From assembly GCA_002341825.1 (NCBI GenBank), contig DDOU01000065.1:1-28621 (forward strand): a DNA stretch of 28,621 nt. Reading direction: 5' to 3'. This document shows, one piece after another, positions 2,032 to 28,094 of this stretch. Each line of letters opens with the position of its first letter. Position 1 is the stretch's first letter. The position numbers were made by a program, and so were the translations under genes. The notes under the pieces were generated by a model. It made no database searches and was not told the DNA's origin. It saw only the letters and a program-made list of their open reading frames with translations. The DNA comes from Candidatus Igneacidithiobacillus taiwanensis. GTDB taxonomy: Bacteria; Pseudomonadota; Gammaproteobacteria; Acidithiobacillales; Acidithiobacillaceae.

Positions 2032-3213
2032 ATGAATTCGACCATGCCGCACGCTTTACGTATTCTGATTGCGCCGGATCATTACAAGGGGAGCATGAGC
2101 GCCCCAGCGGCGGCGCAGATCATGCAGCAGGCCTTTGCTCGGCATTTCCCGGGCGCGACTTTCGATCTTCTCCCCCTTGCTGACGGTGGCGAAGGGACTG
2201 CCGCGGCCTTTCAGCAGGCCAAAGCCGGGCTTGTCGAAAAAGTTGCGGTGCGCGATCCTTTGGGGCGATGGCGCGAGGCGGACCTCGTATTACTCGATGC
2301 CGGCAAGACCGCCGTGGTGGAAATGGCGCAGGCAAGCGGACTTCTCCTGCTGCGTCCGGAAGAACGCAACCCCCTGCAGACGAGCTCCCACGGCACCGGC
2401 GAATTGCTGCGGGCGGCGTTGGAGCGCGGCGCCGAAACCATTCTAATCGGCCTGGGCGGCAGTGCCACCAACGACGGCGGCATGGGCATGCTCACTGCCC
2501 TCGGCGCCCGCTTTTATGACGCCAAAGGCAAGGAACTGTCTGCTACAGGGAAAGATCTTGCCCGCGTTGCCAAAGCCGATTTCAGCCAACTGCATCCGCG
2601 CCTAGCCGAAGTACACCTTCTCGCCATCTGCGATGTCGATAATCCCCTCCTTGGTCCTACCGGCGCCACCCAAGTCTATGGCCCACAGAAGGGGGCGGAT
2701 GCCGCCGCGCTCTCGGCTCTGGAGGCCGGCATGCGCAATTACCTCCATCATCTCGAGGCCGATAGCGGCAAAGCCCTTGCTGCCTTGCCAGGTGCCGGTG
2801 CGGCCGGCGGTTTGGGTATGGCCTGTCTCTTCTTGGGCGCGCAACTGCGTTCGGGCATAGGGGTCATTGCCGAGCTGCTGCAATTGGAAGAACGCATCGC
2901 TGCTGCAGATCTGGTCATTACCGGCGAAGGCTGTATAGATGAGCAAACCCTGCATGGTAAGACGATTGCCGGGGTGCTACGCGTCGCGCAGCGTCAAGCC
3001 CGCCCCGTCGTGGTCATCGCTGGCGCTTTGCGAACGGATGTCGAAACTTGGCGGAAATTGGGCGCCACGGCGGTATTCAGTAGCGTCGCCAGCTCGGCCC
3101 CGGAGGCGGACCTGCTTGCCTCGGGGCCCAGCAACTTAGAGCGAACCGCCAGCAGCGTTGCCGCCACCTTGGCCTGCGGCCTTGGCCTCGCTGCCCGAAC
3201 TGCCCAAGCCTAG
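2032..3213 (+). CDS. Glycerate kinase, class I (GlxK/GarK type)
   Basis: 393-residue ATP-dependent kinase of the GlxK/GarK family, which phosphorylates D-glycerate, usually to 2-phosphoglycerate. Family signatures are the opening IAPDHYKGSMSA, LADGGEGTAAAF (about residue 46), IGLGGSATNDGGMGML (about 139) and VITGEGCIDEQTLHGKT (about 295). It follows the acetyltransferase by 54 bases. An in-frame ATG at 2044 is an alternative start. Position next to an MFS transporter and a glycolate-oxidase operon suggests the last step of glycolate salvage, though it is on the far side of the convergent MFS gene. Its stop codon TAG shares the tetranucleotide CTAG with the MFS stop on the other strand. Confidence 0.93.
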   Translation: MNSTMPHALRILIAPDHYKGSMSAPAAAQIMQQAFARHFPGATFDLLPLADGGEGTAAAFQQAKAGLVEKVAVRDPLGRWREADLVLLDAGKTAVVEMAQASGLLLLRPEERNPLQTSSHGTGELLRAALERGAETILIGLGGSATNDGGMGMLTALGARFYDAKGKELSATGKDLARVAKADFSQLHPRLAEVHLLAICDVDNPLLGPTGATQVYGPQKGADAAALSALEAGMRNYLHHLEADSGKALAALPGAGAAGGLGMACLFLGAQLRSGIGVIAELLQLEERIAAADLVITGEGCIDEQTLHGKTIAGVLRVAQRQARPVVVIAGALRTDVETWRKLGATAVFSSVASSAPEADLLASGPSNLERTASSVAATLACGLGLAARTAQA

Positions 3214-4508
3214 CCCACGGCAGCACCCATATCGCCGGCGGGGGTAACACTACGCTTTGCCTCCAGATCGATGGGCAAGGGGATGCGCATGGCCCAGAGG
3301 TTGACGAGCATACCCAAGGCAGCCAAGACCGCCATTACCCAAAAGACACCGGACCAGCCAACCGTGCCAATGAGCACCGAGGAGGACACCGGTCCAATGG
3401 CACTCACGGAGTTGGAGATCAGGCCAATGGCGAAGGCGCCGGCGCCCATAGTCGCCACCGGAAAACAATTACACGGCGACGCCCAATAGTTGGGTGGAGT
3501 GGCCATGGTGCAGGCAACGACCAGGGCAGAAATCAAAAACCACGTGTAGGATATTGGTGCAACGTACAAAATCATCAGGGCACCGAGAATCACCGCACCG
3601 TTGGCAAAGCTGATCACACGCAGGCGCGCGTTGATGACACTACGGTGGGAGGCATCGCGCCGAGCCCGGAGATCCCCCAGAAGCGCGCCGAGGATGGCGG
3701 CCACAAAGCCCATCAGACCCCAGATGAACATGACATTACCGGTTTGCGTCGGTTGGTAGCCGAGATGATAGGCATACAGAGGCAAGAAGCCGCCAATGGT
3801 GAACAGCGCCCAATTATTGGGAATCTGGACGATGCCCATGATCCAGGTCATGGGATAGGACCAGGCGCTGCGATGGTGCCCAACCTTGGCTTTTTTGATA
3901 TCGCCGGCGTGGCTTGCGGCGTCCTTGGCGAAGAGAAAATAGATCACGGAACCCAGCACCATGATCCCGGCAGTAATGAAATAGACATCCTGCCAACCGA
4001 GGGCGGCCAGACTCCCGGTGACGATACCGCCAACGGCACCGCCGAGGGTAATGGCGCCCAGCATTGCCGCCAGGGAAATACCGCGCTGGCTAGACCGGAA
4101 CCATCCTCCGAGTTGCAGCGAGAAGAGCGCAATCATCATGATCATCAACCCTTGGCAGAAGCGCAGCACTACCAGCAGCAGCAAGGATTTGGTGAGGGGA
4201 ATGAGGATGGGCAGCAATACCTGCGGCACAATGAGAAAAACCTGCGCCAATAGTACCCCGAGTTTGATGCGCGTATCGAAGATGCCGCCGTGGCCAAGAA
4301 AAAAGGCCACGAACAACCCAACGGAAAAGGCGTCTACCCCGGCAGTGGCAAGGGTGGATGCGGAAACCCCCATGGCCTGCGCCATGGCGGGCGCGGCGAC
4401 TCCGAAGGCAGTCAACGACATGAAACTGGTGGTCATGATGATGCCTGCAACCGATGCCATTACCCAACGGTAGGGCGACGAGTATTCCGGTAATTCTTGT
4501 AGATCCAT
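3210..4508 (-). CDS. MFS transporter, probably for a small organic acid
   Basis: 432-residue inner-membrane carrier of the major facilitator superfamily with about twelve hydrophobic segments. These begin at residue 15 (WVMASVAGIIMTTSF) and are split by a basic central loop near residues 195-215 (KDAASHAGDIKKAKVGHHRS). RFCQGLMIMM (about residue 117) and WFRSSQRG (about 136) match the conserved helix 4-5 region, and DLRARRDASHRS a later cytoplasmic loop. The start is supported by GAGGAG about eight bases upstream on the minus strand. Lying downstream of the IclR gene and opposite glycerate kinase, it may carry glycolate, glycerate or a related hydroxy acid. That substrate is inferred from context only. 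It ends convergently with glycerate kinase, sharing the stop bases. Confidence 0.85.
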   Translation of the reverse strand: MDLQELPEYSSPYRWVMASVAGIIMTTSFMSLTAFGVAAPAMAQAMGVSASTLATAGVDAFSVGLFVAFFLGHGGIFDTRIKLGVLLAQVFLIVPQVLLPILIPLTKSLLLLVVLRFCQGLMIMMIALFSLQLGGWFRSSQRGISLAAMLGAITLGGAVGGIVTGSLAALGWQDVYFITAGIMVLGSVIYFLFAKDAASHAGDIKKAKVGHHRSAWSYPMTWIMGIVQIPNNWALFTIGGFLPLYAYHLGYQPTQTGNVMFIWGLMGFVAAILGALLGDLRARRDASHRSVINARLRVISFANGAVILGALMILYVAPISYTWFLISALVVACTMATPPNYWASPCNCFPVATMGAGAFAIGLISNSVSAIGPVSSSVLIGTVGWSGVFWVMAVLAALGMLVNLWAMRIPLPIDLEAKRSVTPAGDMGAAVG

Positions 4509-4750: not shown

Positions 4751-5581
4751 TCAGCGCGCCATGGGCTTGTATTCCGGATGTTCTGGATAGTGCACGTTGA
4801 GGGTGACCTTACGACCGCGTAGGTTACGGACGATGCGCCGCCCCGCCTCGGACAGGAGTTTGCTCCAGACGAGTTGCCGGCGATCGATGGGCGCCGAGAT
4901 GCTCAGCCCCACCACCCAGGGCAACTTGGCCTCGAGCAGGATGGCAAGACAGCCAACCCCTTCCTCGGCCTCTTCGTTGTCGAGGGCAAAACCGCGCTCC
5001 CGGGTGGCCTGCAGTTCCGCGGTCAGGGCGGGAAGGCTTTGCAGGGAGTGGCGGGTAAGGGCAGGAAGGCCACAGCGGCGCGCATAGGCGGCAACGGCTT
5101 CGGCATCGCCGCGAGCCAGCATCAGCTTGCCGACGGCGGTGCAATGCAGGGGTGCGCGGCTGCCGATGATCTGCTCCACCCGCATCAGACGACGGGGAGA
5201 AACCCGCGCCACATAGAGCACCTCATCCTGCTCTTGAATGCTCAAATTTACCGTCTCTTGCACCTGATCGCGCAACCAGAGCATGGCGGGTCGGGCCAGA
5301 GTGCAGAGGTCGTTGCGCCCGGCAATGAGTTCGGCCCAGTCGGCAAGCTGTGCCGCGAAGAGATAGTGTCCTTGCGCATCGCGCGTCAGCAAGCCATTGG
5401 CCTGCGCCGCAGCAAGAATGCGAAACGCGGTGGAGCTGGCCAGGCCGGTTTCTGCGGCGAGCACCTTGAGGCTCGCCTCGCCGCCCTCGGCAGCGAGGGC
5501 ATCGAGGAGGGAACGTAGGCGGTCAATGACTTGTATTCCCGAAGAAACTTGTTTCTTCGCCACGTTTTTATTCCGCATCAT
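4751..5581 (-). CDS. IclR-family transcriptional regulator
   Basis: 276-residue cytoplasmic DNA-binding protein. An N-terminal winged helix-turn-helix covers about residues 14-75 (SGIQVIDRLRSLLDAL; LKVLAAETGLASSTAFRIL as helix-turn-helix). The IclR effector domain follows, with VLYVARV, LHCTAVGKLMLA (about 145) and EEAEEGVGCLAILL (about 200-213). IclR proteins bind small organic acids such as glyoxylate, pyruvate or aromatic acids. Being divergent from the glycolate-oxidase operon, it probably controls it, the MFS gene and itself. Two consecutive start codons (5581 and 5578) are possible, with no good ribosome site before either. Both lie inside an inverted repeat, so autoregulation is plausible. 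Confidence 0.93.
   Translation of the reverse strand: MMRNKNVAKKQVSSGIQVIDRLRSLLDALAAEGGEASLKVLAAETGLASSTAFRILAAAQANGLLTRDAQGHYLFAAQLADWAELIAGRNDLCTLARPAMLWLRDQVQETVNLSIQEQDEVLYVARVSPRRLMRVEQIIGSRAPLHCTAVGKLMLARGDAEAVAAYARRCGLPALTRHSLQSLPALTAELQATRERGFALDNEEAEEGVGCLAILLEAKLPWVVGLSISAPIDRRQLVWSKLLSEAGRRIVRNLRGRKVTLNVHYPEHPEYKPMAR
5541..5558. promoter_or_regulatory. Perfect 18-base dyad within the iclR-type 5' coding region (operator candidate)
   Basis: GAAGAAAC-TT-GTTTCTTC is a perfect inverted repeat with eight-base arms, inside codons 8-14 of the regulator. Its core AACTTGTT resembles the core AACAAGTT of the dyad at 5626-5639. IclR-family operators are short AT-rich palindromes, so this is a candidate autoregulatory site; it may also be partly a coding coincidence. 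Confidence 0.4.
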
Positions 5582-5605
5582 GAAAAATTATTTTCATTGC
5601 GGAAT
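5570..5605. promoter_or_regulatory. Imperfect 36-base dyad over the iclR-type start codon
   Basis: Outer arms ATTCCGCA (5570-5577) and TGCGGAAT (5598-5605) are perfect inverted repeats. They enclose a second inverted repeat, TGAAAA (5581-5586) and TTTTCA (5591-5596), offset by one base. The structure spans both possible start codons of the regulator and the -35 region of the candidate promoter for the divergent operon. It could be an operator or, in the regulator mRNA, a hairpin masking the start. Confidence 0.45.
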
Positions 5606-5656: not shown

Positions 5657-7882
5657 ATGCAAAGCTCTAACCCTCCGCGCAGCGAATCTCCCGATTTTCG
5701 TCACGGCATTCGGTATTTTGGTGCGCCCTGGAGCGCTGATACCGACTACGGCCGCGCGCCCGTGGTACAGAACGACAGCGGTCGTATTGCCGATCCGGCC
5801 GATCCGGCCGCGGCCTACCAGGGGCTTTTGCTGGCCGACGCCCTGCGCTATTGCACCCTCCAGGTCTGCGCCGCAAAGTCCTCGGGCCATCCCGGCGGCT
5901 TTGCCTCCAGTGCCGAGGCCTATGCCGCCTTGGTACTCCTCGGGCACACCAATATCGTGACGGAAGTGGGGCACCATGCCCCTGGCTTCTACAGCGCCAT
6001 GTTCCTCGATCGCTCCTTGGAGGCCATGGGGATACACAACATGCAGGATTTCATGGATCGCTATCGCGAGCGCCATGGCCTGCTTGGTCATCTTTCCGGT
6101 GCCATTCCCGGTCTTCTTGCCCCGGCCGGTCCCCTCGGTCAGGGACAGCACTTCGCCATGGCCGGCGCCTTGTTGCATCCTGGCGTTCTCTTTCCGGTGA
6201 CCATTGGCGACGGCGGCCTGGGCGAGCCCTACGTGCTGAGCAGCATGAAGCATTTTCATTTTGCCTACCCGCAAGTCACCAACTATCTGCCCATACTGGT
6301 CTGGAACGGCTTTAGCCAGGAACATCATTCGATGATCTCGCGCATGGGCAATGCGGAAATGATTGCCTATTGGCGCGCCCACGATTTTGACGAGGTGATC
6401 CTGGTCGATGCCAAGGACTTTGACGATGCCGGGCAGGATGGCGCCTACGTCGATTCCACCCGCTTCTCCCAGGCGGCTCGTATGGCCTTCATGCAGGCAG
6501 TGCTGACCGGTATGGCGAAGGCGGCGACCAGCGCCCTTAGTGGCCGCCACACCGCCTTTTTGCTCAAGCAGCTCAAGGGGGCCGGGGTACACACGACGGG
6601 AGCCAAGGCGCACAATCTCCATCCGCACGATACCCTGGAGTCGCCCGAGATCTGCGCTGCCCTGAGCGAACGCGCGCTTTCTCCCGAGGCCTGGGCTTTG
6701 GTGCGAGAAAACTGCGTACGTGCCGGTGGTGGACCGGCAGCAAAGACGGTGGTTACCGAGCGGGAGTTGGAATTACCTGCCCTGGGCGAGTTTCCCCTGC
6801 ACGAATACCGGCTCGGCGAAGCAGCAGTGCCGGCCAGCGCCATGGCGGCCTTGGTCGCTTGGCTGGGTGCCCGTGATCGCCGTTTTGTGGTCAGCAATGC
6901 CGACGGCACCGAAGCCTCGAACATGAAGGCCATCAACGAGGCCCTGAAGATTCGCCATCCCACCCCGGATCCGCTCTATCATCAAGAGCCGGGGGGCCAG
7001 GTTTATGAGCCCTTGAGCGAAGACGCCTGTGCCGGCCTTGCGGCGGGCCTTGCCCTCTTTGGCGGACGTGCGCTCTGGCTGTCGTACGAATCCTTTGCCA
7101 TCAATGGCTGGCCCATCGTGCAAACCGTTGGCCAGGCAATGGCGGAGCTGCGCCGACGCACGCCCTCGCTGGTGTGTATGTTTACCGCGGGCGCCCTCGA
7201 ACAAGGTCGCAACGGCTGGACCCACCAGCGGCCGGAAATCGAGAGTTACATCGCCGCACAGATGCGTAATGGCAATGTCTTTTTGCTCTATCCGCCCGAT
7301 GCCAACGGCATTCAGGCGGCCTATGAGATGGCGAGCACCAGTCACAACAAGATCATGACCATCATTGCCTCGAAGAGTCCGCTGCCCGTGCGCCTGAGCC
7401 TCGCCGATGCGCGCCGGGGCCTGCAGGCCGGCGCCGTGACCTTGGCCGAGGCAGGCGAGGGCCAGCGCGGCAGTATCGTCTTTGCGGTCTTGGGCGATAT
7501 GGTCTTGCAGTCGGTTTTTGCGGTGCAGGAGGATCTCGTGGCGGCGGGCTACCGGGTGCGTATCGTGGCGGTGATCAACCCTCGCCAGCTCTATCGTCCC
7601 GAGGATGTGGCGGGAACCGATGTGGCGGAGTTCGATGACCATTTTCTTGCCGACGACGCCTTTCATGCCCTCTTCGATGCCGATCTTTTGGTTGGCGTCA
7701 GCGGCGGGCCAGCCACCGCCCTCGAGCCGGTGTTGTTGCGCAGCCGCCATCGCGCCCGGGAGATTTTTGCCTGGCAACGCGGCGACACCACCGCCTCGGC
7801 GGGGCAGCTCCTCGGCCTCAACGGTTTAGCCCCGGAACAGATCCGCGCGCGTCTGCGCCAGCGCCTGGAGAGCTTGGGGTAG
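5657..7882 (+). CDS. Thiamine-diphosphate enzyme of the transketolase/phosphoketolase superfamily
   Basis: 741-residue cytoplasmic ThDP-dependent enzyme. The first half is transketolase-like: KSSGHPGG (74-81), VGHHAPG (104-110), GPLGQG (158-163) and the metal/ThDP-binding GDGGLGE (184-190). The second half looks like phosphoketolase: EPLSE (about 451-455, likely the glutamate that activates the ThDP aminopyrimidine), QGRNGWTHQRPE (516-527), LYPPDANG (544-551), KSPLP (about 573-577) and a late RGDTTASAG. The reading frame stays open upstream to 5531, but I chose ATG 5657 because earlier starts overlap the regulator and its operators. It is four bases from the next gene. Donor and acceptor are unknown; they could be xylulose 5-phosphate phosphoketolysis or ketol transfer to glyoxylate. 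Superfamily confident, reaction not. Confidence 0.85.
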   Translation: MQSSNPPRSESPDFRHGIRYFGAPWSADTDYGRAPVVQNDSGRIADPADPAAAYQGLLLADALRYCTLQVCAAKSSGHPGGFASSAEAYAALVLLGHTNIVTEVGHHAPGFYSAMFLDRSLEAMGIHNMQDFMDRYRERHGLLGHLSGAIPGLLAPAGPLGQGQHFAMAGALLHPGVLFPVTIGDGGLGEPYVLSSMKHFHFAYPQVTNYLPILVWNGFSQEHHSMISRMGNAEMIAYWRAHDFDEVILVDAKDFDDAGQDGAYVDSTRFSQAARMAFMQAVLTGMAKAATSALSGRHTAFLLKQLKGAGVHTTGAKAHNLHPHDTLESPEICAALSERALSPEAWALVRENCVRAGGGPAAKTVVTERELELPALGEFPLHEYRLGEAAVPASAMAALVAWLGARDRRFVVSNADGTEASNMKAINEALKIRHPTPDPLYHQEPGGQVYEPLSEDACAGLAAGLALFGGRALWLSYESFAINGWPIVQTVGQAMAELRRRTPSLVCMFTAGALEQGRNGWTHQRPEIESYIAAQMRNGNVFLLYPPDANGIQAAYEMASTSHNKIMTIIASKSPLPVRLSLADARRGLQAGAVTLAEAGEGQRGSIVFAVLGDMVLQSVFAVQEDLVAAGYRVRIVAVINPRQLYRPEDVAGTDVAEFDDHFLADDAFHALFDADLLVGVSGGPATALEPVLLRSRHRAREIFAWQRGDTTASAGQLLGLNGLAPEQIRARLRQRLESLG

Positions 7883-7886
7883 GGCC

Positions 7887-9200
7887 ATGGGCAAGATCAT
7901 CGTCATCGACGACGACCCCACCGGGTCACAGACGGTGCATGGCTGCCTCCTGCTCACGCGCTGGGACAGCAGCAGCCTGCGAAGCGCCCTGGCCGATACT
8001 GCGCCGCTCTTTTTTATACTGGCCAACACCCGCGCCCTGCCCGCCGCTGCCGCTGCCGACCGCCTGCGGGAGATTGCTCGGGGGTTGCGGGAGGCCCTGG
8101 CGGCATCGCCCTCGCCCGATGGCTATCTTCTGGTGAGCCGCTCCGACTCGACCCTGCGCGGTCACTATCCCTTGGAAACCGATCTCCTCGCCGAGGAACT
8201 CGGCCCCTTCGATGCCCACTTTCTGGTGCCGGCCTTTTTCGAGGGGGGGCGCATCACCCACAACGGCACCCATTATCTGCGGCAGGATGGACACTTGGTG
8301 CCGGTGCACGAAACGGAATTTGCCAGGGACGCGGTCTTTTCCTTTCACCACAGTTATTTGCCCGATTATGTGGAGGAGAAGACAAAGGGTCGCATCCCGG
8401 CTGCAGCCGTTCGCGTTCTGCGCCGCGCGGACTTGGTAGAGCAGGGGGAGGCGATTCTCCGTGGCCTGCGCGACAATGCTTGCGTGGCGGTAGATGCAGA
8501 AACGCCGGACGATCTCGCCTGTTTTGCCGCCGCGGTGCGCGCCGCCCAACGGGCCGGCAAACGTTTTCTCTTTCGCAGCGCCGCCAGTCTGCTCACCGCC
8601 CTGGCCGATCTGCCGCCACAACCGGTTGCCCCAGAGGCGATGGGGCAGTTTCGCCGTGGCACCACTCCCGGCGTGGTTCTCGTCGGCTCCCATGTCCGCA
8701 AGAGCAGCGAACAGCTCGAGGTCCTACTCGAGGAGGAGGGGGTTGCTGCCATTGTCGTGGACGTCGATCGATGCCAAGGCGAGGAGCGGGTTGCCTACCA
8801 GAACGCGGTGCTGCAGCAATGCGCGGCAGCCTATGCGCAAGGCCAAGATCTGGTGATCTACACCAGCCGCGAGGAACGTCGTTTTGCCAGCGATACCGAG
8901 CGTCTGACCTTTGGCGAGGCGGTGTCGCGCTTTCTCATGGAAGTTTTGCAAGGCCTGCCGCGGGATATCAGCTTTCTCATTGCCAAGGGCGGCATTACTT
9001 CCAACGACACCCTGAGCACGGGGCTCGCATTGGCAATGGTGCGCAGTATGGGGCAGATCTTACCGGGCTGTTCCCTGGTCCTCTGCCCCGCGGAGCACCC
9101 ACGTTTTCCCAATCTGCCGGTGGTGATTTTTCCAGGCAACGTCGGCGACCGCGACGCCCTCGCCCTGGTTCGTCGTCGGCTGCGCGGCGCGGGGGCCTGA
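7887..9200 (+). CDS. DUF1537 (four-carbon acid-sugar kinase family) protein
   Basis: 437-residue kinase of the DUF1537 family, whose characterised members phosphorylate D-threonate, D-erythronate, 3-oxotetronate or 3-oxo-isoapionate using ATP. The N-terminal substrate domain has DDDPTGS (8-14), SRSDSTLRGHYP (84-95) and PAFFEGGRITHNGTHYL (115-131). The C-terminal nucleotide domain has GSHVRKSSEQ (267-276), KGGITSND (367-374) and PGNVGD (416-421). The length is normal for the family. It sits four bases after the ThDP enzyme and two bases before glcD, so it is part of the glycolate operon. The true substrate is not evident from sequence; a four-carbon acid made from glyoxylate is my inference. 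Confidence 0.92.
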   Translation: MGKIIVIDDDPTGSQTVHGCLLLTRWDSSSLRSALADTAPLFFILANTRALPAAAAADRLREIARGLREALAASPSPDGYLLVSRSDSTLRGHYPLETDLLAEELGPFDAHFLVPAFFEGGRITHNGTHYLRQDGHLVPVHETEFARDAVFSFHHSYLPDYVEEKTKGRIPAAAVRVLRRADLVEQGEAILRGLRDNACVAVDAETPDDLACFAAAVRAAQRAGKRFLFRSAASLLTALADLPPQPVAPEAMGQFRRGTTPGVVLVGSHVRKSSEQLEVLLEEEGVAAIVVDVDRCQGEERVAYQNAVLQQCAAAYAQGQDLVIYTSREERRFASDTERLTFGEAVSRFLMEVLQGLPRDISFLIAKGGITSNDTLSTGLALAMVRSMGQILPGCSLVLCPAEHPRFPNLPVVIFPGNVGDRDALALVRRRLRGAGA

Positions 9201-9202
9201 CC

Positions 9203-10666
9203 ATGCTGGCGCCGCGGGAAGAAGAATTTTTTCGCGCCCTGGCAGCGTTGCTCCCCAAGGACGGCCTGTTGCGGGATGTCGAAAGCCTGCGTCCCTATGA
9301 GTGCGATGGCCTATCCGCGTTACGCAGCCTGCCGTGGTGCGTCGCCCTGCCGGAGACGGCGGCAGCGGTAGAGGCAATACTCCGTCTCTGCCACGAATAT
9401 GGCGTTGCCGTGGTGCCGCGCGGGGCGGGGACCGGGCTCTCCGGTGGGGCGCGGCCCTCGCATGCCGCCTTGTTGCTTGGCCTCGCCCGCCTGCGGGAAA
9501 TGGCCGAGCCGGATCTGCGCAGTCGCTCCATTCGCGTCGGTCCAGGGGTGCGCAACCTGGCGGTTAGCGAAAAGGTTCGTCGCCATGGTCTCTACTACGC
9601 CCCTGACCCTTCCTCGCAAATCGCCTGCAGCATTGGCGGCAATGTGGCGGAAAACTCCGGCGGTGTGCACTGCCTCAAATACGGTCTCACCACCCACAAT
9701 GTCCTCGCGGTGGAGCTCTGCGACAGCAGCGGTGAACGTCTACCCATCGGCAGTCTCGCCCCCGATACTCCGGGCTTCAATTTGCTCTCTTTGGTCATTG
9801 GTAGCGAGGGACTCCTCGGTGTGGTCACCAGTTGTACACTGCGCCTCCTGCCCCTCCCACCCCAGACCCTCGTCCTACTGGCCGCTTTTCCCTCGCTGCG
9901 GCAGGCGGCCGATAGCGTCGGTGCCATCATCGCCGCCGGCATCCTGCCAGCTGGCCTGGAGATGATGGATCAACTGGCCATACAAGCCGCCGAGGACTTC
10001 GTTCATGTCGGTTATCCGCGGGAGGCGGCGGCGATCCTCCTCTGCGAATTGGACGGCGAGGAAGATGAACTCCAGGAGCAACTGCAGCAAGTTGCAGAAA
10101 TCCTGCGCCAGCAAGGAGCGACGGAGCTGCGTGTCGCCCGCGACGAGGCTACCCGCATGGCCCTGTGGAAGGGGCGCAAGGCGGCTTTTCCGGCGGTGGG
10201 GCGCATTGGTCCCGACTACTACTGTATGGACGGCTCCATCCCGCGACAGCGCCTGGCGGAGGTACTCGAGCAAATCAACGTCTTGGCCCGCGACTATGGT
10301 CTGCGCGTTGCCAACGTTTTCCATGCCGGGGATGGCAACCTGCACCCGCTCATTCTCTACGATGCCAACCAGGAGGGGGAACAGGAACGGGCCGAGGCCC
10401 TCGGTGCGCGCATCCTCGAACTCTGTGTTGCCGTTGGCGGCACGGTCACGGGCGAACATGGGGTTGGAGTGGAGAAGCTCGACGGGATGTGCGTGCAGTT
10501 TTCGAGCGCCGAGCTCGCGCAACTCCATCGCATCAAGGCGGCCTTCGATCCTGCTGGTCTGCTCAACCCTGGCAAGGCGGTGCCGAGCCTCCACCATTGC
10601 GCCGAGCTCGGGGCCATGCATGTGCACGGCGGCCAGCTCCCGTTTCCCGAACTGGAGCGCTTCTGA
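9203..10666 (+). CDS. glcD: Glycolate oxidase FAD-binding subunit GlcD
   Basis: 487-residue flavoprotein, close to the 499 of E. coli GlcD. With GlcE and GlcF it oxidises glycolate to glyoxylate and passes electrons to the respiratory chain. The FAD-binding (PCMH) half shows PRGAGTGLSGG (72-82), PDPSSQIACSIGGNVAENSGG and VIGSEGLLGVV. The C-terminal half shows FHAGDGNLHP (about residue 373) and VTGEHGVGVEKLDG (about 415), typical of the glycolate/D-lactate branch, and ends in a LLNPGK motif. The frame is open far upstream inside the kinase gene, but ATG 9203 just after the kinase stop gives the normal family length. One base separates it from glcE. Confidence 0.95.
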   Translation: MLAPREEEFFRALAALLPKDGLLRDVESLRPYECDGLSALRSLPWCVALPETAAAVEAILRLCHEYGVAVVPRGAGTGLSGGARPSHAALLLGLARLREMAEPDLRSRSIRVGPGVRNLAVSEKVRRHGLYYAPDPSSQIACSIGGNVAENSGGVHCLKYGLTTHNVLAVELCDSSGERLPIGSLAPDTPGFNLLSLVIGSEGLLGVVTSCTLRLLPLPPQTLVLLAAFPSLRQAADSVGAIIAAGILPAGLEMMDQLAIQAAEDFVHVGYPREAAAILLCELDGEEDELQEQLQQVAEILRQQGATELRVARDEATRMALWKGRKAAFPAVGRIGPDYYCMDGSIPRQRLAEVLEQINVLARDYGLRVANVFHAGDGNLHPLILYDANQEGEQERAEALGARILELCVAVGGTVTGEHGVGVEKLDGMCVQFSSAELAQLHRIKAAFDPAGLLNPGKAVPSLHHCAELGAMHVHGGQLPFPELERF

Positions 10667-10667
10667 A

Positions 10668-11732
10668 ATGGATCGCAGCGACGAGATCCGTGCCCAAATA
10701 GTCGCTGCCTACGAGAATCGCAGCGCCTTGGCGATCCGCGGCGGCGGCAGCAAGTCCTTTTATGGGCGCCCGGTGGCGGCATCGCGGACTCTGGAATTGG
10801 GCGGGCATCAGGGCATCCTCGAATATGAACCCAAGGAGCTATATATTTGCGCCCGCGCCGGCACCCCATTGTCGGAAATCGAGGCGGTTTTGGCGCAACG
10901 GGGGCAGATCTTGGCCTTTGAAGCACCGCATTTTTCTCCGCACGCCACCCTCGGCGGCTGCGTGGCCAGCGGTCTTTCCGGCCCCCGTCGACCCTATGCC
11001 GGAGCCGTGCGCGATCACGTCCTCGGGGTGCGTATGCTCAACGGTCGTGGTGAGGATCTGCGCTTTGGCGGCAAGGTGATGAAGAATGTAGCCGGCTATG
11101 ACGTTTCCCGACTCCTGGCGGGTTCGCTGGGAAGCCTGGGCGTGCTTCTCGAAGTCACCTGCAAGGTGCTTCCGCGTCCAGTCGCTACCCGCAGCCTCGC
11201 TTTCGATATGTCGGCTGCCGCGGCCCTCGAGCAGCTGGTGACTTGGTCTCTGCGTCCTAGTCCCATCAGTGCCGCCGCCCACGATGGCGAGCGGCTCTAC
11301 TTGCGTCTCGAGGGCGCCGCCAGCCGGGTGGAGAACTTTGCCCGCGCCGTCGGCGGAGATCTTCTTGCCGACGATGTGGGCGATCGCTTTTGGGAAGATC
11401 TGCGTGAGCAACGATTACCTTTCTTTGCCGGTACCGCTCCCCTCTGGCGTTTGGCTCTGCCGGCTGGATCGCCGCCCGTGCCGGAGAGCTTTGGTACGGT
11501 CTTCTACGATTGGGGCGGACAGCAAGGCTGGTTGCGCGGCCCCCTCGATGCCCCGGCATTGCGGGCTTGGGCCGCGCGCCAGGGCGGCCATGCCACCGCC
11601 TTCCGCCACCCGCCTGATGACGCCGTCTTTCAAGACCTACCTCCGGCACTCCTCGCCTTGCAACAACGTCTGAAGGCGGCTTTTGATCCTGCCGGTATTC
11701 TCAATCCCGGTCGTTTCTATCCTGGTCTATAG
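10668..11732 (+). CDS. glcE: Glycolate oxidase FAD-binding subunit GlcE
   Basis: 354-residue second FAD-binding subunit (E. coli GlcE has 350). It carries a shortened version of the PCMH fold: IRGGGSKSFYGRP (about 24-36), ATLGGCVASGLSGPRRPYAG (about 88-107), GGKVMKNVAGYDVSRLLAGSLG (about 136-157). The C-terminus, LKAAFDPAGILNPGRFYPGL, is characteristic. ATG 10668 was chosen because it follows the glcD stop by one base and restores family length. The subunit has no known independent activity and acts with GlcD and GlcF. Order and spacing match canonical glcDEF operons. Confidence 0.95.
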   Translation: MDRSDEIRAQIVAAYENRSALAIRGGGSKSFYGRPVAASRTLELGGHQGILEYEPKELYICARAGTPLSEIEAVLAQRGQILAFEAPHFSPHATLGGCVASGLSGPRRPYAGAVRDHVLGVRMLNGRGEDLRFGGKVMKNVAGYDVSRLLAGSLGSLGVLLEVTCKVLPRPVATRSLAFDMSAAAALEQLVTWSLRPSPISAAAHDGERLYLRLEGAASRVENFARAVGGDLLADDVGDRFWEDLREQRLPFFAGTAPLWRLALPAGSPPVPESFGTVFYDWGGQQGWLRGPLDAPALRAWAARQGGHATAFRHPPDDAVFQDLPPALLALQQRLKAAFDPAGILNPGRFYPGL

Positions 11733-11742
11733 GAATCAGTCG

Positions 11743-12966
11743 ATGCAAACTCGTCTCGCCCCACAATATCAGAGCAATCCGCTCGCCCAGGAGGCCGAGA
11801 CGATTCTGCGCAGCTGTGTCCACTGCGGCTTCTGCAATGCCACCTGCCCGACGTACCAGGTGCTCGGCGACGAGTTGGATGGTCCGCGCGGCCGCATCTA
11901 CCTACTCAAGGAACTGCTGGCCGGCGCCACAGCAGCGGAGAGTACCCGCTTGCATCTCGATCGTTGCCTATCCTGTCGGGCCTGCGAAACTACCTGCCCC
12001 TCCGGGGTGCGCTATGCGCGCCTGCTCGAGATCGGTCGCCACTTGCAGAATGCTGCCTTGCCCCGCGCTCCTGGAGAGGAATTACGGCGGCGAGCGATTC
12101 GCGCCATCATCGGCCAGCCCCGGCGCCTACGGCCGCTCCTGGCCCTCGCCCAGACCCTGCGACCGGTGCTGCGCGCACCCATCGCGCGCCATATTCCTGT
12201 GCCAGCGCCGGTGCGCTCACCATACCCCGTCACCACCCCGCAGCGCGGGAAAGTCCTTGCCCTTGCCGGCTGTGTGCAGAGTGTGGCAACCCCACAGACT
12301 GAAGCAGCGCTACAAAAGATCCTCGCCCACCTTGGTTACACCTTGTTGCGTGGCGAGGGCTGTTGTGGCGCCCTGAGTCTGCATCTGGATGCCTGGGAGG
12401 AGGCCCACGAGCAGATTCGGCGCAATATCGATGCCTGGTGGCCCGTCGTTACTGCCGGAGTAGACGCCATCCTCGTCAGCGCCAGCGGCTGTGGCAGCGT
12501 CGTCAAGGACTACGGCGATATCCTCCGCGACGATCCGCAGTACGCCGCCAAGGCGGCCCGCATAGCAGCCCTGGCCAAGGACCCCTCGGAGTGGCTGCAG
12601 GCTCATCGTGAGGCGTTGCCAATGGCAACGGAGGAGCGCGCTCGCATCGCCTTTCATGCCCCCTGTTCCTTGCAACATGGCCAGCGCATTCAGGGCGTCG
12701 CCGAGGCAATTCTGCAAGGCTTGGGCTACCGTTTACTGCCGGTGACCGACGCCCATCTCTGCTGCGGCTCGGCCGGCAGCTATTCCTTGCTGCAGCCACA
12801 AATGGCAGAGGAGCTGCGTAGGCGCAAGCTGGAAAATCTCGAAGCCGAACAGCCGCAATGGATTGCCACCGCCAATGTTGGCTGCCAACTCTTTCTCAAC
12901 CAAGCCGCGCAGGTACCCGTTCGTCATTGGCTGGAATTGGTGGCAGAGGCCTTGCCGGAGGCGTAG
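11743..12966 (+). CDS. glcF: Glycolate oxidase iron-sulfur subunit GlcF
   Basis: 407 residues, the same length as E. coli GlcF. Two ferredoxin-type [4Fe-4S] motifs lie near the N-terminus, C25-C28-C31-C35 (CVHCGFCNATCP) and C75-C78-C81-C85 (CLSCRACETTCP). Two CCG domains typical of heterodisulfide-reductase-like proteins follow (EGCCGALSLH and LCCGSAGSYSLL). GlcF relays electrons from the FAD subunits towards the quinone pool at the inner membrane. ATG 11743 was chosen over an in-frame upstream start inside glcE because AGGAA precedes it and family length is exact. Last gene of the five-gene operon. Confidence 0.96.
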   Translation: MQTRLAPQYQSNPLAQEAETILRSCVHCGFCNATCPTYQVLGDELDGPRGRIYLLKELLAGATAAESTRLHLDRCLSCRACETTCPSGVRYARLLEIGRHLQNAALPRAPGEELRRRAIRAIIGQPRRLRPLLALAQTLRPVLRAPIARHIPVPAPVRSPYPVTTPQRGKVLALAGCVQSVATPQTEAALQKILAHLGYTLLRGEGCCGALSLHLDAWEEAHEQIRRNIDAWWPVVTAGVDAILVSASGCGSVVKDYGDILRDDPQYAAKAARIAALAKDPSEWLQAHREALPMATEERARIAFHAPCSLQHGQRIQGVAEAILQGLGYRLLPVTDAHLCCGSAGSYSLLQPQMAEELRRRKLENLEAEQPQWIATANVGCQLFLNQAAQVPVRHWLELVAEALPEA

Positions 12967-13099: not shown

Positions 13100-14617
13100 A
13101 TGGCGGCAACCTACGACATCCTCATTGTTGGCGGCGGCATCAACGGCGTCGGAATTGCCAGGGATGCGGCCGGGCGCGGCCTTTCGGTCCTCCTGGTGGA
13201 GCAAGACGACCTCGCGGCCCATACCTCGTCTGCCAGCACCAAGCTGATACATGGTGGCTTACGCTACCTGGAATACTACGAATTCCGTTTGGTGCGGGAG
13301 GCACTACAGGAGCGAGAGCGCTTACTGGGAATTGCCCCCCATATCATCTGGCCGCTCGAATTTTTGCTGCCCGAGGGTCCAGGCGGGCGAGCCCGCTGGA
13401 AGATACGGGCCGGCCTATGGTTGTACGATCACCTTGCCAGCCGGCAGAGTTTGCCGGCCTCGCGAGCGCTCGATTTCGCCACGCATCCCGCTCACGAGAT
13501 CCTGCAGGAGCCATACCGACTGGGCTTTAGCTATGCCGACTGCTGGGTGGAAGACAGCCGCTTGGTGGTGCTCAATGCCCTCGACGCCAAGGAACGTGGA
13601 GCGGAGATTCGCACCCGCTGCCGCTTGCTGTCGGCACGGCCGGAACCGGGCCACTGGCGCGCGCAGCTACAAGAGCCATCCGGCACTACCTACACCGTCA
13701 CGGCATCCGTCTTGGTCAACGCCACCGGCCCATGGGTAGGAGATCTTCTGCACCGCGAGCTCGGCCTCGCAAGCCAGAAAACCGTGCGCAAGGTAAAGGG
13801 CAGCCACATCATCGTGCCCAAATTATACGCCGGTGACTTCGCCTTTCTCCTACAAAATCCCGACAAGCGCATCGTCTTTGCCATTCCCTACGAAAGCGAG
13901 TACACCCTGATTGGCACCACCGATATCCCCATGCAGGGCGATCCGGCCAAGGTGGAGATTTCTCCGCAAGAGACGCAGTATCTGTGTGCGAGCGTCAACG
14001 CCTATTTCCGCAAATCCATTACTCCGCAAGATGTTTGCCGCAGCTATTCGGGTGTTCGTCCCCTGTACGATGACCATGCTGCCAACGCCTCGGCGGTGAC
14101 CCGCGACTACGTGCTCGACCTGCAACAAGATGGGCACCCGCCCCTGCTCTCGGTTTTTGGCGGCAAAATCACTACCTATCGGCGCCTGGGAGAGCATGCA
14201 CTGCAACTCCTCGCACCAGCACTGGGACTTGCCAACATTTCTTCCTGGACGGCCAGCGAGGCCCTGCCCGGCGGTGCATTGGGCGGAAGCTTCGAATCCT
14301 TTCTGGTCCGCCTTGGGCAGCGCTATGCCTTTCTGCCGCCGGCACTTTGCCGGCGTTTGGCGCGTGCGTACGGGAGCCGCGTCGAAAGCATCCTCGGCAC
14401 CGCCCAAAGTCTCGCCGACTTGGGGACAGATTTTGGCGGCGGGCTGTATCAGGCCGAGGTCGATTATCTCTGGGATCAGGAATGGGCCAGGGAGGCGGAA
14501 GATATTCTCTGGCGTCGATCCAAGCTCGCCCTCCACGTGCCCGCGGAAACCCCCGCTCGCCTGGAGGCCTATCTACAGCAACGCAGCAGAGGAGGACGGG
14601 AAAGTATTGGCAACTAA
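13100..14617 (+). CDS. glpD: Aerobic glycerol-3-phosphate dehydrogenase
   Basis: 505-residue FAD enzyme (E. coli GlpD 501) that oxidises sn-glycerol 3-phosphate to dihydroxyacetone phosphate and reduces quinone at the inner membrane. The N-terminal Rossmann motif GGGINGVGIARDAAGRG is at about residues 11-27. It is followed by SSASTKLIHGGLRYLE, GPWVGDLL, YTLIGTTDIP and SGVRPLYDD, and by FGGKITTYRRL near residue 355. GGAGGT at 13089-13094, five bases before ATG 13100, fixes the start. First gene of a six-gene operon, 31 bases from glpK. Confidence 0.96.
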   Translation: MAATYDILIVGGGINGVGIARDAAGRGLSVLLVEQDDLAAHTSSASTKLIHGGLRYLEYYEFRLVREALQERERLLGIAPHIIWPLEFLLPEGPGGRARWKIRAGLWLYDHLASRQSLPASRALDFATHPAHEILQEPYRLGFSYADCWVEDSRLVVLNALDAKERGAEIRTRCRLLSARPEPGHWRAQLQEPSGTTYTVTASVLVNATGPWVGDLLHRELGLASQKTVRKVKGSHIIVPKLYAGDFAFLLQNPDKRIVFAIPYESEYTLIGTTDIPMQGDPAKVEISPQETQYLCASVNAYFRKSITPQDVCRSYSGVRPLYDDHAANASAVTRDYVLDLQQDGHPPLLSVFGGKITTYRRLGEHALQLLAPALGLANISSWTASEALPGGALGGSFESFLVRLGQRYAFLPPALCRRLARAYGSRVESILGTAQSLADLGTDFGGGLYQAEVDYLWDQEWAREAEDILWRRSKLALHVPAETPARLEAYLQQRSRGGRESIGN

Positions 14618-14648
14618 CCGCAGGTAACGCTGTCGAGGAGGAGAAAAA

Positions 14649-16172
14649 ATGTCGAAAGAATATATCGGCGCCATCGATCAAGGCACCACCAGCACGCGCT
14701 TCATGGTCTTCGATCGCGAAGGCAAGGTCATCAGTAGCGCCCAGAAAGAGCATCGACAAATCTACCCACAACCGGGATGGGTAGAACATGATCCGCTGGA
14801 AATCATCGATAACAGTAACGAAGTCATCGGCGCCGCTCTGGCGCGCGCCAAGCTCAGCCCCGAAAACCTCATTGCCGTGGGCATCACCAATCAGCGCGAA
14901 ACGACCTTGCTTTGGGATCGCCACAGTGGCAAACCCCTGTGCAATGCCCTGGTCTGGATGGACACCCGCAACGACGAGCTGGTGCAGCGCTACGCCCAGA
15001 ATGGCGGACAGGATCGCTTTCGTAGCCGCACCGGGCTGCCCTTGGCCACCTATTTTTCCGCCCTCAAACTTGCCTGGATCCTCGAGCAGGTTCCGGGCGC
15101 GCGGCAAGCCGCCGAGCGTGGCGACGCCCTCTTCGGCAATATCAATACCTGGCTTGCTTGGCAGATGACTGGGGGGCCCAAGGGTGGGCTGCATATTACC
15201 GATGTCAGCAATGCCAGCCGAACCATGTTGATGGATCTCGCCAGCTGTCAGTGGGATGCCGATCTCCTGGCGGAATTTCGCATTCCCCCCGCCTGCCTGC
15301 CGGAAATTCGTCCTTCTGCCATGGTCTACGGCGAACTCTGCTGTGCACCCCTGCGCGGCACCCCCCTGGCCGGCATGTTGGGAGATCAGCAGGCCGCACT
15401 TTTCGGGCAAACATGTTTTCGCCCCGGCGGCGCCAAGAATACCTACGGTACCGGCTCCTTTTTGCTGATGAACACCGGCAACAAGTTGGTGCACTCGGCG
15501 GCCGGCCTGCTATCGACCATCGCCTACCAAATCCAGGGAGAAGCCCCGGTATATGCCCTCGAGGGCGCCATCGCCATCACCGGTGCCCTGGTCCAGTGGT
15601 TACGCGACAATCTTCGGCTTTTCGATGTTGCCGGGCAGATCGAACCCCTCGCACGCAGCGTCGCCGACAATGGCGATGTCTACTTCGTGCCCGCCTTTTC
15701 TGGACTCTATGCCCCCTATTGGCGCGATGATGCCCGCGGCGTCATCGCTGGCCTCACCCGCTTTGCCACCAAGGCTCACATTGCCCGGGCCGCCTTGGAG
15801 TCTACGGCGTATCAGGTCCGCGATGTGGTCGAGGCCATGGAACAAGACAGTGGCATTGCCCTTAGCCGTTTGCGCTGCGATGGCGGTATGGTGGTCAACG
15901 AGCTCCTCATGCAGTTTCAGGCAGACATGCTCGGTAAACCGGTCCTCCGTCCACGCATGATCGAAACTACGGCCCTGGGCTCCGCCTACGCGGCGGGCCT
16001 GGCTACTGGATATTGGCAGAATTTTCAGGATCTCGAGGCCAACTGGGGCATTGATCGCGAGTGGCAACCTGCCCTCGCGGAAGGCGAGCGCGCGCGTCTC
16101 TACCATTCCTGGAAAAAAGCCGTTGCACGTTCCTTCGGCTGGGTAGAACAAGGAGAACGACATGTCAACTAA
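14649..16172 (+). CDS. glpK: Glycerol kinase
   Basis: 507-residue FGGY-family kinase (E. coli GlpK 502) converting glycerol and ATP to sn-glycerol 3-phosphate. Diagnostic stretches are [16 protein letters not shown] (about 6-21), [28 protein letters not shown] (about 79-96), [27 protein letters not shown] (about 262-276) and the C-terminal [19 protein letters not shown]. Its strong ribosome site GAGGAGGAG lies just before the start. The last eleven bases overlap glpF, and AAGGAG within the gene's end serves glpF. Its product is the substrate of the upstream glpD. Confidence 0.97.
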
Positions 16173-17163
16173 TACTTCTCGTCCCGGATATGGCGTAAAG
16201 ACCGGCTGGCGCGCCGAATCCATCTGGTCGGAGATGCTGGCGGAATTCTTCGGCTGTTTTGTTTTGCTCGCCTTTGGCGCCGGCTGCGTTGCCGTGGCCG
16301 TGGTCGGCCTCACCGAATCGGGACGCACCAGCGTCATCTTTCAAGGGGCGGGGGGCTGGATGCTCATCGTCTGGGGCTGGGCCTTCGCTGTGATCATGGC
16401 CATCTATGTTGCCGGAGGGGTCACCGGGGCACATATCAATCCCGCCGTGACCCTGGCTTTCGCCCTCAAAGGGGATTTTCCCTGGCGTAAGGTTCTGCCC
16501 TACTGGTTAGCGCAGGTCGCTGGCTGCTTTGCTGGCGCGGCCATCGTCTTTCTCGACTATTTCAAAGCAATCGATGCCTGGAATCTCAGTCATCAGGTGC
16601 TCAGCCGCGCCGATCCTGGGGGTATGACCACCTTCAGCATCTTTGCCACCTTTCCTGCGGCGTATTACGGTAACGAGATGGGTCTGGCCTTGCTCGATCA
16701 AGTGATTGCCACCTTCTTTTTGGTGCTCTTCGTTTTTGCCATCATCGACAACATGAATGTTGGACCACGCGCCAATCTTGCCCCCTTTCTAGTCGGCCTT
16801 GCGGTGGCTGCCATCGGTGCCTCGTTTGGAACCGGCACTGGCTATGCCATCAACCCCGCCCGCGACTTTGGCCCGCGTTTCTTCTGTTGGCTGGCCGGCT
16901 GGGGCAGCAACGCCCTGCCAGGACCGCACGGCTATTGGTGGGTGCCGATCCTCGGACCCCTCATCGGTGCCAGCCTCGCGGTTTTCGCCTACGACTGGTT
17001 CATCAGTAGGACGCTCTGCGCCCGCGCCAAGCTACTACGCGAGCGCCAACCCCATGTAGAGCAACACGGCTTGGGCTTCAAGCTCGAAAAATTGCAAAGC
17101 GCCCTCGAAGAGGTCCGCAAGGAAATGGAAGCCGACCGAAAGGCGGCGGGAGAATCTTCATGA
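16162..17163 (+). CDS. glpF: Aquaglyceroporin (glycerol facilitator) with C-terminal extension
   Basis: 333-residue MIP-family channel with six membrane helices and two half-helices carrying NPA motifs at 93-95 and 231-233. The second motif reads NPARD, where the aspartate after the arginine is typical of glycerol-conducting members. It would admit glycerol and probably dihydroxyacetone. The core ends near residue 285. About 45 further residues include a charged segment, [20 protein letters not shown] (about 307-326), with a heptad-like pattern that may form a cytoplasmic coiled coil. E. coli GlpF (281 residues) lacks this. It starts eleven bases inside glpK and its stop overlaps the dhaK ATG. 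Confidence 0.94.
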
Positions 17164-18170
17164 AAGCCCTCGTCAATGCCCCCGAAAATGTCGTAGCCGA
17201 AGCCTTGGAGGGGATGGCCCTCGCCTATCCCGAGTTGCTACACGTCGAGACCGAGCCGCGCTTTCTGCGCCGCAGCGACGCGCCCCGGCGCGGCAAGGTC
17301 GCCCTGGTTTCGGGCGGCGGTTCTGGTCACGAACCGCTGCACGGTGGCTTCGTTGGCAGCGGCATGCTCGACGCCGCCTGTCCGGGCGAAGTCTTCACCA
17401 GCCCCACTCCCGACCAGATCCTTGCCGCCGCTCAGGCGGTGAATGGCGGTGCCGGCGTTCTGCTCATCGTCAAAAATTACACCGGCGATGTCCTCAACTT
17501 CCAGCTCGCAGCGGAGCTCTTGGCGGCCGCCGACATCCCCACGGAGACGGTATTGGTGGATGACGATGTCGCCGTCACCGACTCCCTCTACACCGCTGGC
17601 CGGCGCGGCGTGGGTGCAACGGTGCTCATCGAGAAGATCTGCGGCGCTGCCGCCGAGGCGGGAAAGAGTCTGGCCGATGTTGCTCGCATCGGACGCGAAG
17701 TCAACGCCGCCGCTCGCTCCATGGGCCTTGCCCTTACCCCCTGTACCAATCCCCAGGCCGGACAGCCCAGCTTCCAGCTCGGCGAACAGGAAATCGAGTT
17801 CGGCATTGGTATTCATGGCGAGCCGGGACGCAGCCGTATTCCCCTGGCCAAAGCAGACACGCTCACCGAGATGCTCCTCACTCCCATTCTTGCCGATCTT
17901 CCCTTCCGCTCTGGCGATACTGTCTTGCTCTTTGTCGATGGCTTGGGGGCCACACCGCTACTCGAACTCTATATCGTCTACCGTGCGGCAACGCGAATTG
18001 CCGAGCAACACGGCCTGCGAATTAGCCGCCGCCTGGTCGGATCGTATATGACGAGTCTGGATATGGCCGGGGTTGCCATTACCCTACTGCGCATGCAGGA
18101 GGACTGGCTCGGCTACTGGGATGCGCCGGTACGCACCCCTGCCCTCTCTTGGGGTGCAACGCCATGCTGA
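17160..18170 (+). CDS. dhaK: PTS-dependent dihydroxyacetone kinase, substrate-binding subunit DhaK
   Basis: 336-residue subunit (E. coli DhaK 356). [15 protein letters not shown] (52-66), NYTGD (106-110) and GIGIHGEPG (215-223) form the active site. His219 corresponds to the histidine that binds dihydroxyacetone covalently as a hemiaminal, and His57 and Asp110 to the other catalytic residues. It presents dihydroxyacetone to the ADP-bearing DhaL for phosphorylation to dihydroxyacetone phosphate. ATG 17160 overlaps the glpF stop by four bases (ATGA), which implies translational coupling. ATP-dependent DAK enzymes are single chains; here separate DhaK, DhaL and DhaM genes indicate the PEP-dependent type. 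Confidence 0.96.
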
Positions 18171-18775
18171 CGACGACGAATCTACGCGCCTGGCTCGACT
18201 GCCTGCACGGCCGCTTGGTGCAAGAGAAGGATCAGCTCAACGCCCTCGACACCGCCATCGGCGACGCCGACCACGGCAGCAATCTGTTGCGCGGCTTTCA
18301 AAAAGTGCAGGAAAAATTGCACGATAACGATCCACCGGACATTCCCGCCCTATGCAAGCTGGTGGGTATGACCCTCATCAGCACCGTTGGTGGTGCCTCT
18401 GGCCCCTTGTACGGCACCTTCTTTCTCGAGGTGGGAAAGTCGATCGCGGCGGGCAGCACCGCCGTAGCGCCGGAAAGCTTCGCCACTGCCTTGGCCGCTG
18501 GGCTACGAGGCATTCAGCGACTGGGCAAGGCAGAACTTGGCGACAAGACCATGGTCGATGCCCTAAGCCCCGCCATCGATGCCTTGCTCGCAAACCAGAG
18601 CCCGGCAACCGCCGCGCAGGCCGCGCGTGCGGGTCTGGCGGCAACCATCCCCCTCGTGGCGCGCAAGGGTCGGGCGAGCTATTTGGGGGAACGCTCCCGG
18701 GGTCATGCCGATCCCGGCGCGGCGTCCGCAGCACTACTCTTCGACTGTCTGGCCACAGCCACACCGAGTAGCTGA
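18164..18775 (+). CDS. dhaL: PTS-dependent dihydroxyacetone kinase, ADP-binding subunit DhaL
   Basis: 203-residue all-helical subunit (E. coli 210). [10 protein letters not shown] places Asp29, Asp34 and Asp36 to hold two Mg2+ ions and a permanently bound ADP, which DhaM rephosphorylates. [23 protein letters not shown] and the C-terminal [15 protein letters not shown] are family signatures. ATG 18164 overlaps the dhaK end by seven bases. A TTG fifteen bases earlier is in frame but would add residues absent from the family. dhaM starts three bases after its stop. Confidence 0.96.
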
Positions 18776-18778
18776 ACG

Positions 18779-24651: not shown

Positions 24652-28093
<3,442 letters not shown>

Positions 28094-28094
<1 letters not shown>

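Follow-up and report, generated by a model that had tools for sequence, protein, structure and literature searches.

We analysed a stretch of 28,621 nucleotides from Candidatus Igneacidithiobacillus taiwanensis (contig DDOU01000065.1, hereafter the window), and found that an operon on its plus strand carries a conserved pair of genes, which encode a thiamine diphosphate (ThDP) enzyme (5657..7882, 741 residues) and a DUF1537 (four-carbon acid sugar) kinase (7887..9200, 437 residues). Comparison with other genomes supports the view that the two proteins are one functional or evolutionary unit. Within the surveyed class, the pair is confined to genomes with Rubisco and the glycolate oxidase subunit GlcF, and it often lies near genes of glyoxylate metabolism. 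That the two proteins act together in the glyoxylate metabolism of Calvin-cycle bacteria is highly probable. As for the exact reaction, the best mechanism that the sequences suggest would be ketol transfer to glyoxylate, giving 3-oxotetronate and then dihydroxyacetone phosphate (DHAP) and CO2, and we give it an even chance. The pair may recycle the waste product of Rubisco in many CO2-fixing cyanobacteria and rock-eating bacteria by an undescribed route.

To assess the conservation of the pair, we used the best 80 of 153 ThDP-gene relatives among GTDB species (38 non-cyanobacterial and 42 cyanobacterial loci, many of the stretches being short), and surveyed 184 genomes of the class and 116 genomes of the cyanobacterial phylum. 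The kinase gene directly follows the ThDP gene in 37 of the 38 non-cyanobacterial loci; the exception is a contig that stops 0.4 kb past the ThDP gene (L009). Thirteen of the 184 class genomes have the ThDP family, and exactly these 13 also have the kinase clade (E below 1e-140); they span 12 families and include the window's own genome. The two genes are adjacent in all 13, with gaps up to 0.9 kb and one pair split over contigs (G033). For two of these genomes (G019 and G165), congeners within the class set (G151 and G038, respectively) have no match to either gene. The counts leave out one of 14 raw ThDP matches, which we assigned to the canonical phosphoketolases (XFP) instead (G101, 33% identity over residues 441-732 only, E 5.6e-22), and two of 15 raw kinase matches (G095, 43% identity; G152, a fragment of 124 residues). 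The G152 fragment (G152:C9:14086-14457) is 59% identical to the C-terminus of the kinase and comes from a genome that has Rubisco but no ThDP match; it is perhaps a remnant. Chance gene order is ruled out by the recurrence of the adjacency in 37/38 loci and 13 class genomes.

In the cyanobacterial phylum, the ThDP gene is present in 45/116 genomes and the kinase in 45/45 of those, while 64/116 genomes have neither gene. No kinase gene was found near the ThDP gene in the surveyed stretches of the 42 cyanobacterial loci, and the closest spacing in the phylum survey was 21 kb (G247). Genes that occur together without lying close to each other are good evidence for a joint function, although related genomes do not count as independent cases. 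The hypergeometric p values for the co-occurrence (3e-20 and 4e-25) take genomes as independent and are guides only. The initial annotation had made its reading depend on a pairing conserved in other genomes, and for the ThDP enzyme and the kinase this conservation was found (13/13 and 45/45). The closest named ThDP protein is that of Acidithiobacillus sp. AMEEHan (90%). Between the window and cyanobacteria, the pair is about 60% identical (59-65% for the ThDP enzyme, mostly 52-62% for the kinase), and its distribution and neighbours fit phosphoglycolate salvage. Far from being a local oddity, the pair forms a family that extends across cyanobacteria and into many proteobacterial autotrophs; its current annotations are 'phosphoketolase' and 'four-carbon acid sugar kinase'. 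Separately, 21 cyanobacterial loci (including L027, L031 and L033) have a gene near the ThDP gene that reads as cytochrome P450-like, mostly just upstream and divergent.

Rubisco was found in 99/184 class genomes and in 13/13 genomes with the pair, the latter at E below 1e-130; the matches include some Rubisco-like proteins. This survey of the class set supports a tie to Rubisco, and the autotrophic host that the initial annotation assumed agrees with a Rubisco large subunit in the window's genome. GlcF was found in 98/184 class genomes and again in 13/13 with the pair, lying no more than 10 kb from it in 8/13. The hypergeometric p values were 2e-4 for Rubisco, 2e-4 for GlcF and 3e-14 for the closeness of GlcF, with the same assumption of independent genomes, and serve as guides only. 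A Glc subunit lies within the surveyed stretch of 15/38 non-cyanobacterial loci.

In the window itself, glcD (9203..10666, plus strand, 487 residues), glcE (10668..11732, plus strand, 354 residues) and the iron-sulfur subunit gene glcF (11743..12966, plus strand, 407 residues) follow the kinase gene. GlcE and GlcF exceed their curated NCBIfam cut-offs (470.8 bits against 284 and 554.8 bits against 333, respectively), whereas GlcD is under its equivalog cut-off (736.7 bits to PRK11230.1 against 897). Frames and domain scans agree with the initial annotation on five plus-strand genes at 5657-12966 with 1-10 bases between them; in the translated window the spacings from the ThDP gene to glcF are 4, 2, 1 and 10 bases. 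The linkage to glcDEF that it had proposed is frequent in the wider sample but not constant.

Most genomes with the pair have GlcF and neither of two known ways of using glyoxylate. Glyoxylate carboligase (Gcl) over the curated cut-off was found in 0/13 of them and in 3/184 class genomes overall. At E 1e-100 there were Gcl matches in 90/184 genomes, of which 3 passed the cut-off; the remainder are probably acetolactate synthases. Malate synthase was present in 65/184 class genomes and in 4/13 with the pair. GlcF without Gcl or malate synthase was thus seen in 9/13, one being the window's genome, a 1.69 Mb draft with one DUF1537 gene that is only 70% complete and in which an absence therefore carries little weight. 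According to the available text of Claassens et al. (PMC7486775), malate synthase occurs in 0% of 9 Acidithiobacillales and in 2% of cyanobacteria.

The absence of Gcl over cut-off from all 13 genomes would suit a ThDP enzyme that replaces Gcl, converting two glyoxylates to tartronate semialdehyde for a reductase and glycerate kinase, with the DUF1537 kinase as an accessory. The window has a glycerate kinase gene (2032-3213), and a GlxR-like reductase gene comes right after glcF in L015 and farther away, 6-7 kb from the kinase gene, in L006 and L007. However, the ThDP protein resembles E. coli Gcl only at noise level (best E 1.6), no relative of the window's glycerate kinase was found in the surveyed stretches of the 80 loci, and the constant presence of the DUF1537 kinase is left unexplained. 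We consider this replacement very unlikely.

Sequence comparison places the ThDP enzyme in a family separate from the canonical phosphoketolases (XFP of Bifidobacterium, cyanobacterial Xfpk), despite its phosphoketolase fold. The protein matched the Pfam families XFP (E 4e-14), XFP_N (E 3e-8) and Transket_pyr (E 3e-7), and scored above the domain cut-offs (PF03894, 53.1/22; PF09364, 33.2/23.7). Yet it lies far under every phosphoketolase NCBIfam cut-off listed (best 110.3 bits against 962), and also under the transketolase equivalog cut-off (28.9 bits against 488). The match to the transketolase TktA was weak and local (E 0.005), and the SRQ of TktA is SKS in the ThDP protein. In place of the XFP motif EGGELGY, the family has the transketolase-type cofactor motif GPLGQG (residues 158-163), which is invariant in 44 aligned members and aligns with TktA. 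Among other substitutions, R518 stands where XFP has His. A canonical phosphoketolase is also present in 8/8 autotroph genomes checked (the window's genome not among them). The low scores, the motif and this coexistence set the ThDP protein apart from the standard phosphoketolases, in support of the initial annotation. The same coexistence led us to reject the idea of the ThDP enzyme as a stand-in for a missing phosphoketolase.

A different reading makes the ThDP enzyme a divergent phosphoketolase that forms acetyl phosphate, and assigns the kinase and GlcDEF to a separate acid-sugar or glycolate step. The fold and the weak XFP match agree with this, and so do residues: H64, H142, H320 and H553, which were mutated in XFP (3ahg/3ahh/3ahi/3ahj), correspond to H78, H145, H319 and H523 of the ThDP protein, unchanged across the 44 aligned members, and the QN motif of XFP is retained. 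Phosphoketolase chemistry is therefore compatible with the sequence. In addition, the available text of PMC7744508 treats Synechocystis sll0529 as a second phosphoketolase from a tree and a model. Against this reading stand GPLGQG, R518 and the canonical XFP alongside; moreover, phosphoketolase activity would not explain a kinase in every genome of the two surveys that has the ThDP gene. We regard a divergent phosphoketolase as unlikely but not negligible. Recombinant Anabaena Alr1850, which may belong to the ThDP family, reportedly showed no phosphoketolase activity.

We infer that sll0529 belongs to the ThDP family, since the cyanobacterial genomes L040, L056, L066 and L080 each have exactly one canonical XFP and one ThDP-family protein. 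In the available text of PMC7744508, sll0529 and alr1850 group with phosphoketolases of fungi and algae, a placement that is not obviously in agreement with this membership. The same source gives sll0529 expression as only 1.10- and 1.21-fold higher in autotrophy at ambient CO2. A Synechocystis strain that lacks both slr0453 and sll0529 has been described (PMC9034593).

The kinase is a full-length DUF1537 protein in domains (SBD_N and NBD_C over the Pfam cut-offs) and fold. It scored far under the D-threonate kinase NCBIfam cut-off (80 against 450 bits) and is 26% identical to E. coli YgbK (E 8e-7). It is nearer to a Deinococcus kinase that adjoins a fructose-bisphosphate (FBP) aldolase gene (42% identity, E 2e-94). 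The DUF1537 kinases reviewed in the available text of PMC10971088 act on four-carbon acids, and one can phosphorylate 4-hydroxythreonine. The latter activity would suit a role of the pair as the source of a pyridoxal phosphate precursor, an oxotetronate 4-phosphate, which would close the PdxB/Epd gap of cyanobacteria. The PdxB domain (PF11890) was found in 1/13 genomes with the pair (39/184 overall), as this role would predict. But the 64 cyanobacterial-phylum genomes that lack both genes do not fit a gap said to be universal, and the restriction to genomes with Rubisco and GlcF and the linkage to glcDEF are not accounted for, which makes a precursor role highly improbable.

We propose that the operon is a phosphoglycolate-salvage unit, as follows. 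Oxygenation by Rubisco would give 2-phosphoglycolate and then glycolate, which GlcDEF, by homology, would oxidise to glyoxylate. A ketose phosphate of the Calvin cycle (xylulose 5-phosphate, fructose 6-phosphate or sedoheptulose 7-phosphate) would donate a two-carbon ketol unit, which the ThDP enzyme would move onto glyoxylate, and the DUF1537 kinase, as a proposed oxotetronate 4-kinase, would phosphorylate the resulting 3-oxotetronate at C4. The 3-oxotetronate 4-phosphate would yield DHAP and CO2, either spontaneously or through the action of an enzyme of the class II FBP-aldolase type. The net balance would be one C2 unit, a C5 phosphate and ATP to two triose phosphates and CO2. We judge the odds evenly balanced that this is a natural, widespread photorespiratory route, which turns 2-phosphoglycolate back into triose phosphate for the cycle and needs no ammonia, glycine or reductant. 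Many cyanobacteria would use it, as would chemolithoautotrophs without Gcl and malate synthase.

The ketol transfer could instead use a different donor, such as hydroxypyruvate, or a different acceptor, such as tartronate semialdehyde, with the kinase acting on the resulting acid sugar; this too would be glyoxylate metabolism. Such a reading draws on the same linkage evidence as transfer to glyoxylate, and GlxR-like and class V aminotransferase genes near some cassettes hint at a possible supply of hydroxypyruvate or tartronate semialdehyde. A class V aminotransferase gene adjoins the cassette in L005, L010 and L053, and in L009 one of the same cluster is about 3 kb away from iclR. However, such a transfer requires an extra enzyme without constant linkage, and the four-carbon acids used by the reviewed DUF1537 kinases speak against it. 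We consider other substrates quite unlikely.

The decarboxylation step was examined for a dedicated enzyme. As the initial annotation stated, there is no OtnC-like gene in the window, by tblastn with E. coli YgbL and two FBP-aldolase-type proteins (E 1e-8 or 1e-4). The fullest cluster is in a gammaproteobacterial metagenome-assembled genome (L015:2209-11497), with the order iclR, ThDP gene, kinase, F_bP_aldolase, glcD, glcE, glcF, GlxR-like. Its F_bP_aldolase protein is 40% identical to the counterpart beside the Deinococcus kinase. Because of this gene after the kinase, and because the kinase is nearer to the Deinococcus kinase than to YgbK, any dedicated decarboxylase is at least as likely to be of the FBP-aldolase type (2-OtnC) as of the E. 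coli OtnC type. In formal terms, adding a carboxyl to C3 of DHAP gives 3-oxotetronate 4-phosphate, so the DHAP-enediolate chemistry of class II aldolases would fit. Since the F_bP_aldolase gene is beside the kinase only in L015, the step elsewhere may be spontaneous, or may use an unlinked gene or the class II aldolase of the Calvin cycle. Another F_bP_aldolase relative lies 6 kb from the ThDP gene in the cyanobacterial locus L030. Aldolase_II (PF00596) is present somewhere in 22/25 genomes with the pair; we rejected an OtnC of this type as the general decarboxylase, as PF00596 was not found in the other three of the 25 searched (G188, G191 and G274) and many of the matches may be other members.

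Upstream of the operon and divergent from it lies an IclR-family regulator gene (4751..5581, minus strand), and the protein is probably AllR/BhcR-like, a candidate glyoxylate sensor, by its profile and its similarity to AllR. It is 27.6% identical to E. coli AllR (E 2e-26), and its best NCBIfam model is BhcR (141 bits), although the score is under the cut-off of 350 and the operon is another one. A divergent IclR homologue is present in 32/38 non-cyanobacterial loci. The palindrome TTTCRYATTRTGAAA recurs in the intergenic region between iclR and the ThDP gene in 33/38 of these loci (at most 1 mismatch). In the 598 kb that the 38 loci cover, 47 sites have at most 1 mismatch, and every one of them is upstream of the ThDP gene at a distance of no more than 430 nt; as the motif was derived from the same 38 loci, its absence elsewhere is the informative part. 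In the window, the sole site at up to 2 mismatches is a degenerate copy, TTCCGCATCATGAAA (5571..5585, plus strand, 2 mismatches), a putative operator that overlaps the iclR start codon. The regulator may sense glyoxylate and control the operon.

Several observations weigh against the proposed route. First, GlcF lies elsewhere or on another contig in 5/13 genomes with the pair. Since Gcl is rare overall, its absence from all 13 is weak evidence. The GlxR-like and class V aminotransferase neighbours would also suit a C2 or glycerate route. Second, the kinase occurs without a ThDP match in seven cyanobacterial-phylum genomes (G227, G243, G268, G290, G292, G299 and G303), with clade-like kinases (E below 1e-150) in G290 and G303; these may reflect assembly gaps or another use. 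A stop codon interrupts the kinase frame of G247, one of the 45 genomes with both genes. Third, the candidate decarboxylase gene adjoins the kinase in 1/80 loci. Among three kinase relatives outside Calvin-cycle genomes, an FBP-aldolase gene adjoins the Deinococcus kinase only, and none was found beside L162 and L163 at E 1e-8. Fourth, the route would cost one CO2 per glyoxylate, twice that of the glycerate pathway. The strongest objection comes from Synechocystis, which without its three known routes did not grow at ambient CO2, according to the available text of PMC7486775. If Synechocystis has the pair, this result argues against a strong fourth route there. Overall, the interpretation in the initial annotation is supported in part: for a functional unit tied to glycolate oxidation and Rubisco and for a non-standard phosphoketolase, but not for glcDEF as a constant part, with glyoxylate as acceptor, 3-oxotetronate as product and the kinase substrate as candidates.

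The components come from known superfamilies, and the proposed route as a whole would be new. Compared with transketolase, the ThDP enzyme would differ in its acceptor, an oxo acid. The otn and L-threonate pathways (OtnK-OtnC; 2-OtnK with F_bP_aldolase-type 2-OtnC) share the DUF1537 kinase with the pair, and the likeness extends to the F_bP_aldolase partner in L015. However, no threonate or erythronate dehydrogenase was recognised in the window, and the C4 acid would arise by ketol transfer instead. The glycerate pathway, the C2 cycle, the oxalate route and the malate cycle likewise begin at glyoxylate made by GlcDEF or an equivalent in Rubisco organisms, but the genomes with the pair differ in their Gcl and malate synthase content, and the carbon balance differs. 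How phosphoglycolate salvage proceeds is established for Synechocystis and Cupriavidus. The available text of PMC7486775 (2020) describes it as uncharacterised in other Calvin-cycle chemolithoautotrophs and leaves further routes for future study. A study that compared the genomes of Calvin-cycle bacteria, cyanobacteria excluded (PMC7895386), does not mention DUF1537 in its available text and found phosphoketolase not significantly enriched. Our literature searches, limited to open-licence papers, showed no description of the proposed ThDP/DUF1537 glyoxylate route among the entries listed. If the proposal is true, core photosynthetic and chemolithotrophic carbon metabolism would have an extra route, which would offer engineering a natural nitrogen-free bypass. 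If sll0529 is also in the ThDP family, flux models that count a second phosphoketolase would have to be corrected.

The surroundings of the operon were also examined. A glycerol/dihydroxyacetone set (13100-21133) starts 133 bases after glcF and, from sequence reading, comprises glpD, glpK, glpF, dhaK and dhaL, with a dhaM-HPr-PtsI fusion recognised by Pfam scan. Its dihydroxyacetone kinase could also trap dihydroxyacetone from spontaneous decarboxylation of 3-oxotetronate. We rejected this set as a constant partner of the pair, since no dhaK, dhaL, dhaM or glp relative was found in the surveyed stretches of the 80 loci. Beyond the regulator, the glycerate kinase gene lies beside a major facilitator superfamily (MFS) transporter gene (3210-4508), and the two possibly serve glycerate or glycolate handling; the transporter likewise had no relative in those stretches. 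On the minus strand, 21112-24591 encodes a large flavoprotein-like enzyme of 1159 residues, part of which is a pyridine-nucleotide oxidoreductase; among NCBIfam models it matches PRK06567 best (611 bits against a cut-off of 1072). Next to it, 24652-28591 (minus strand) carries what we take to be gyrB, recF and the end of dnaN, which would place the operon near the probable replication origin.

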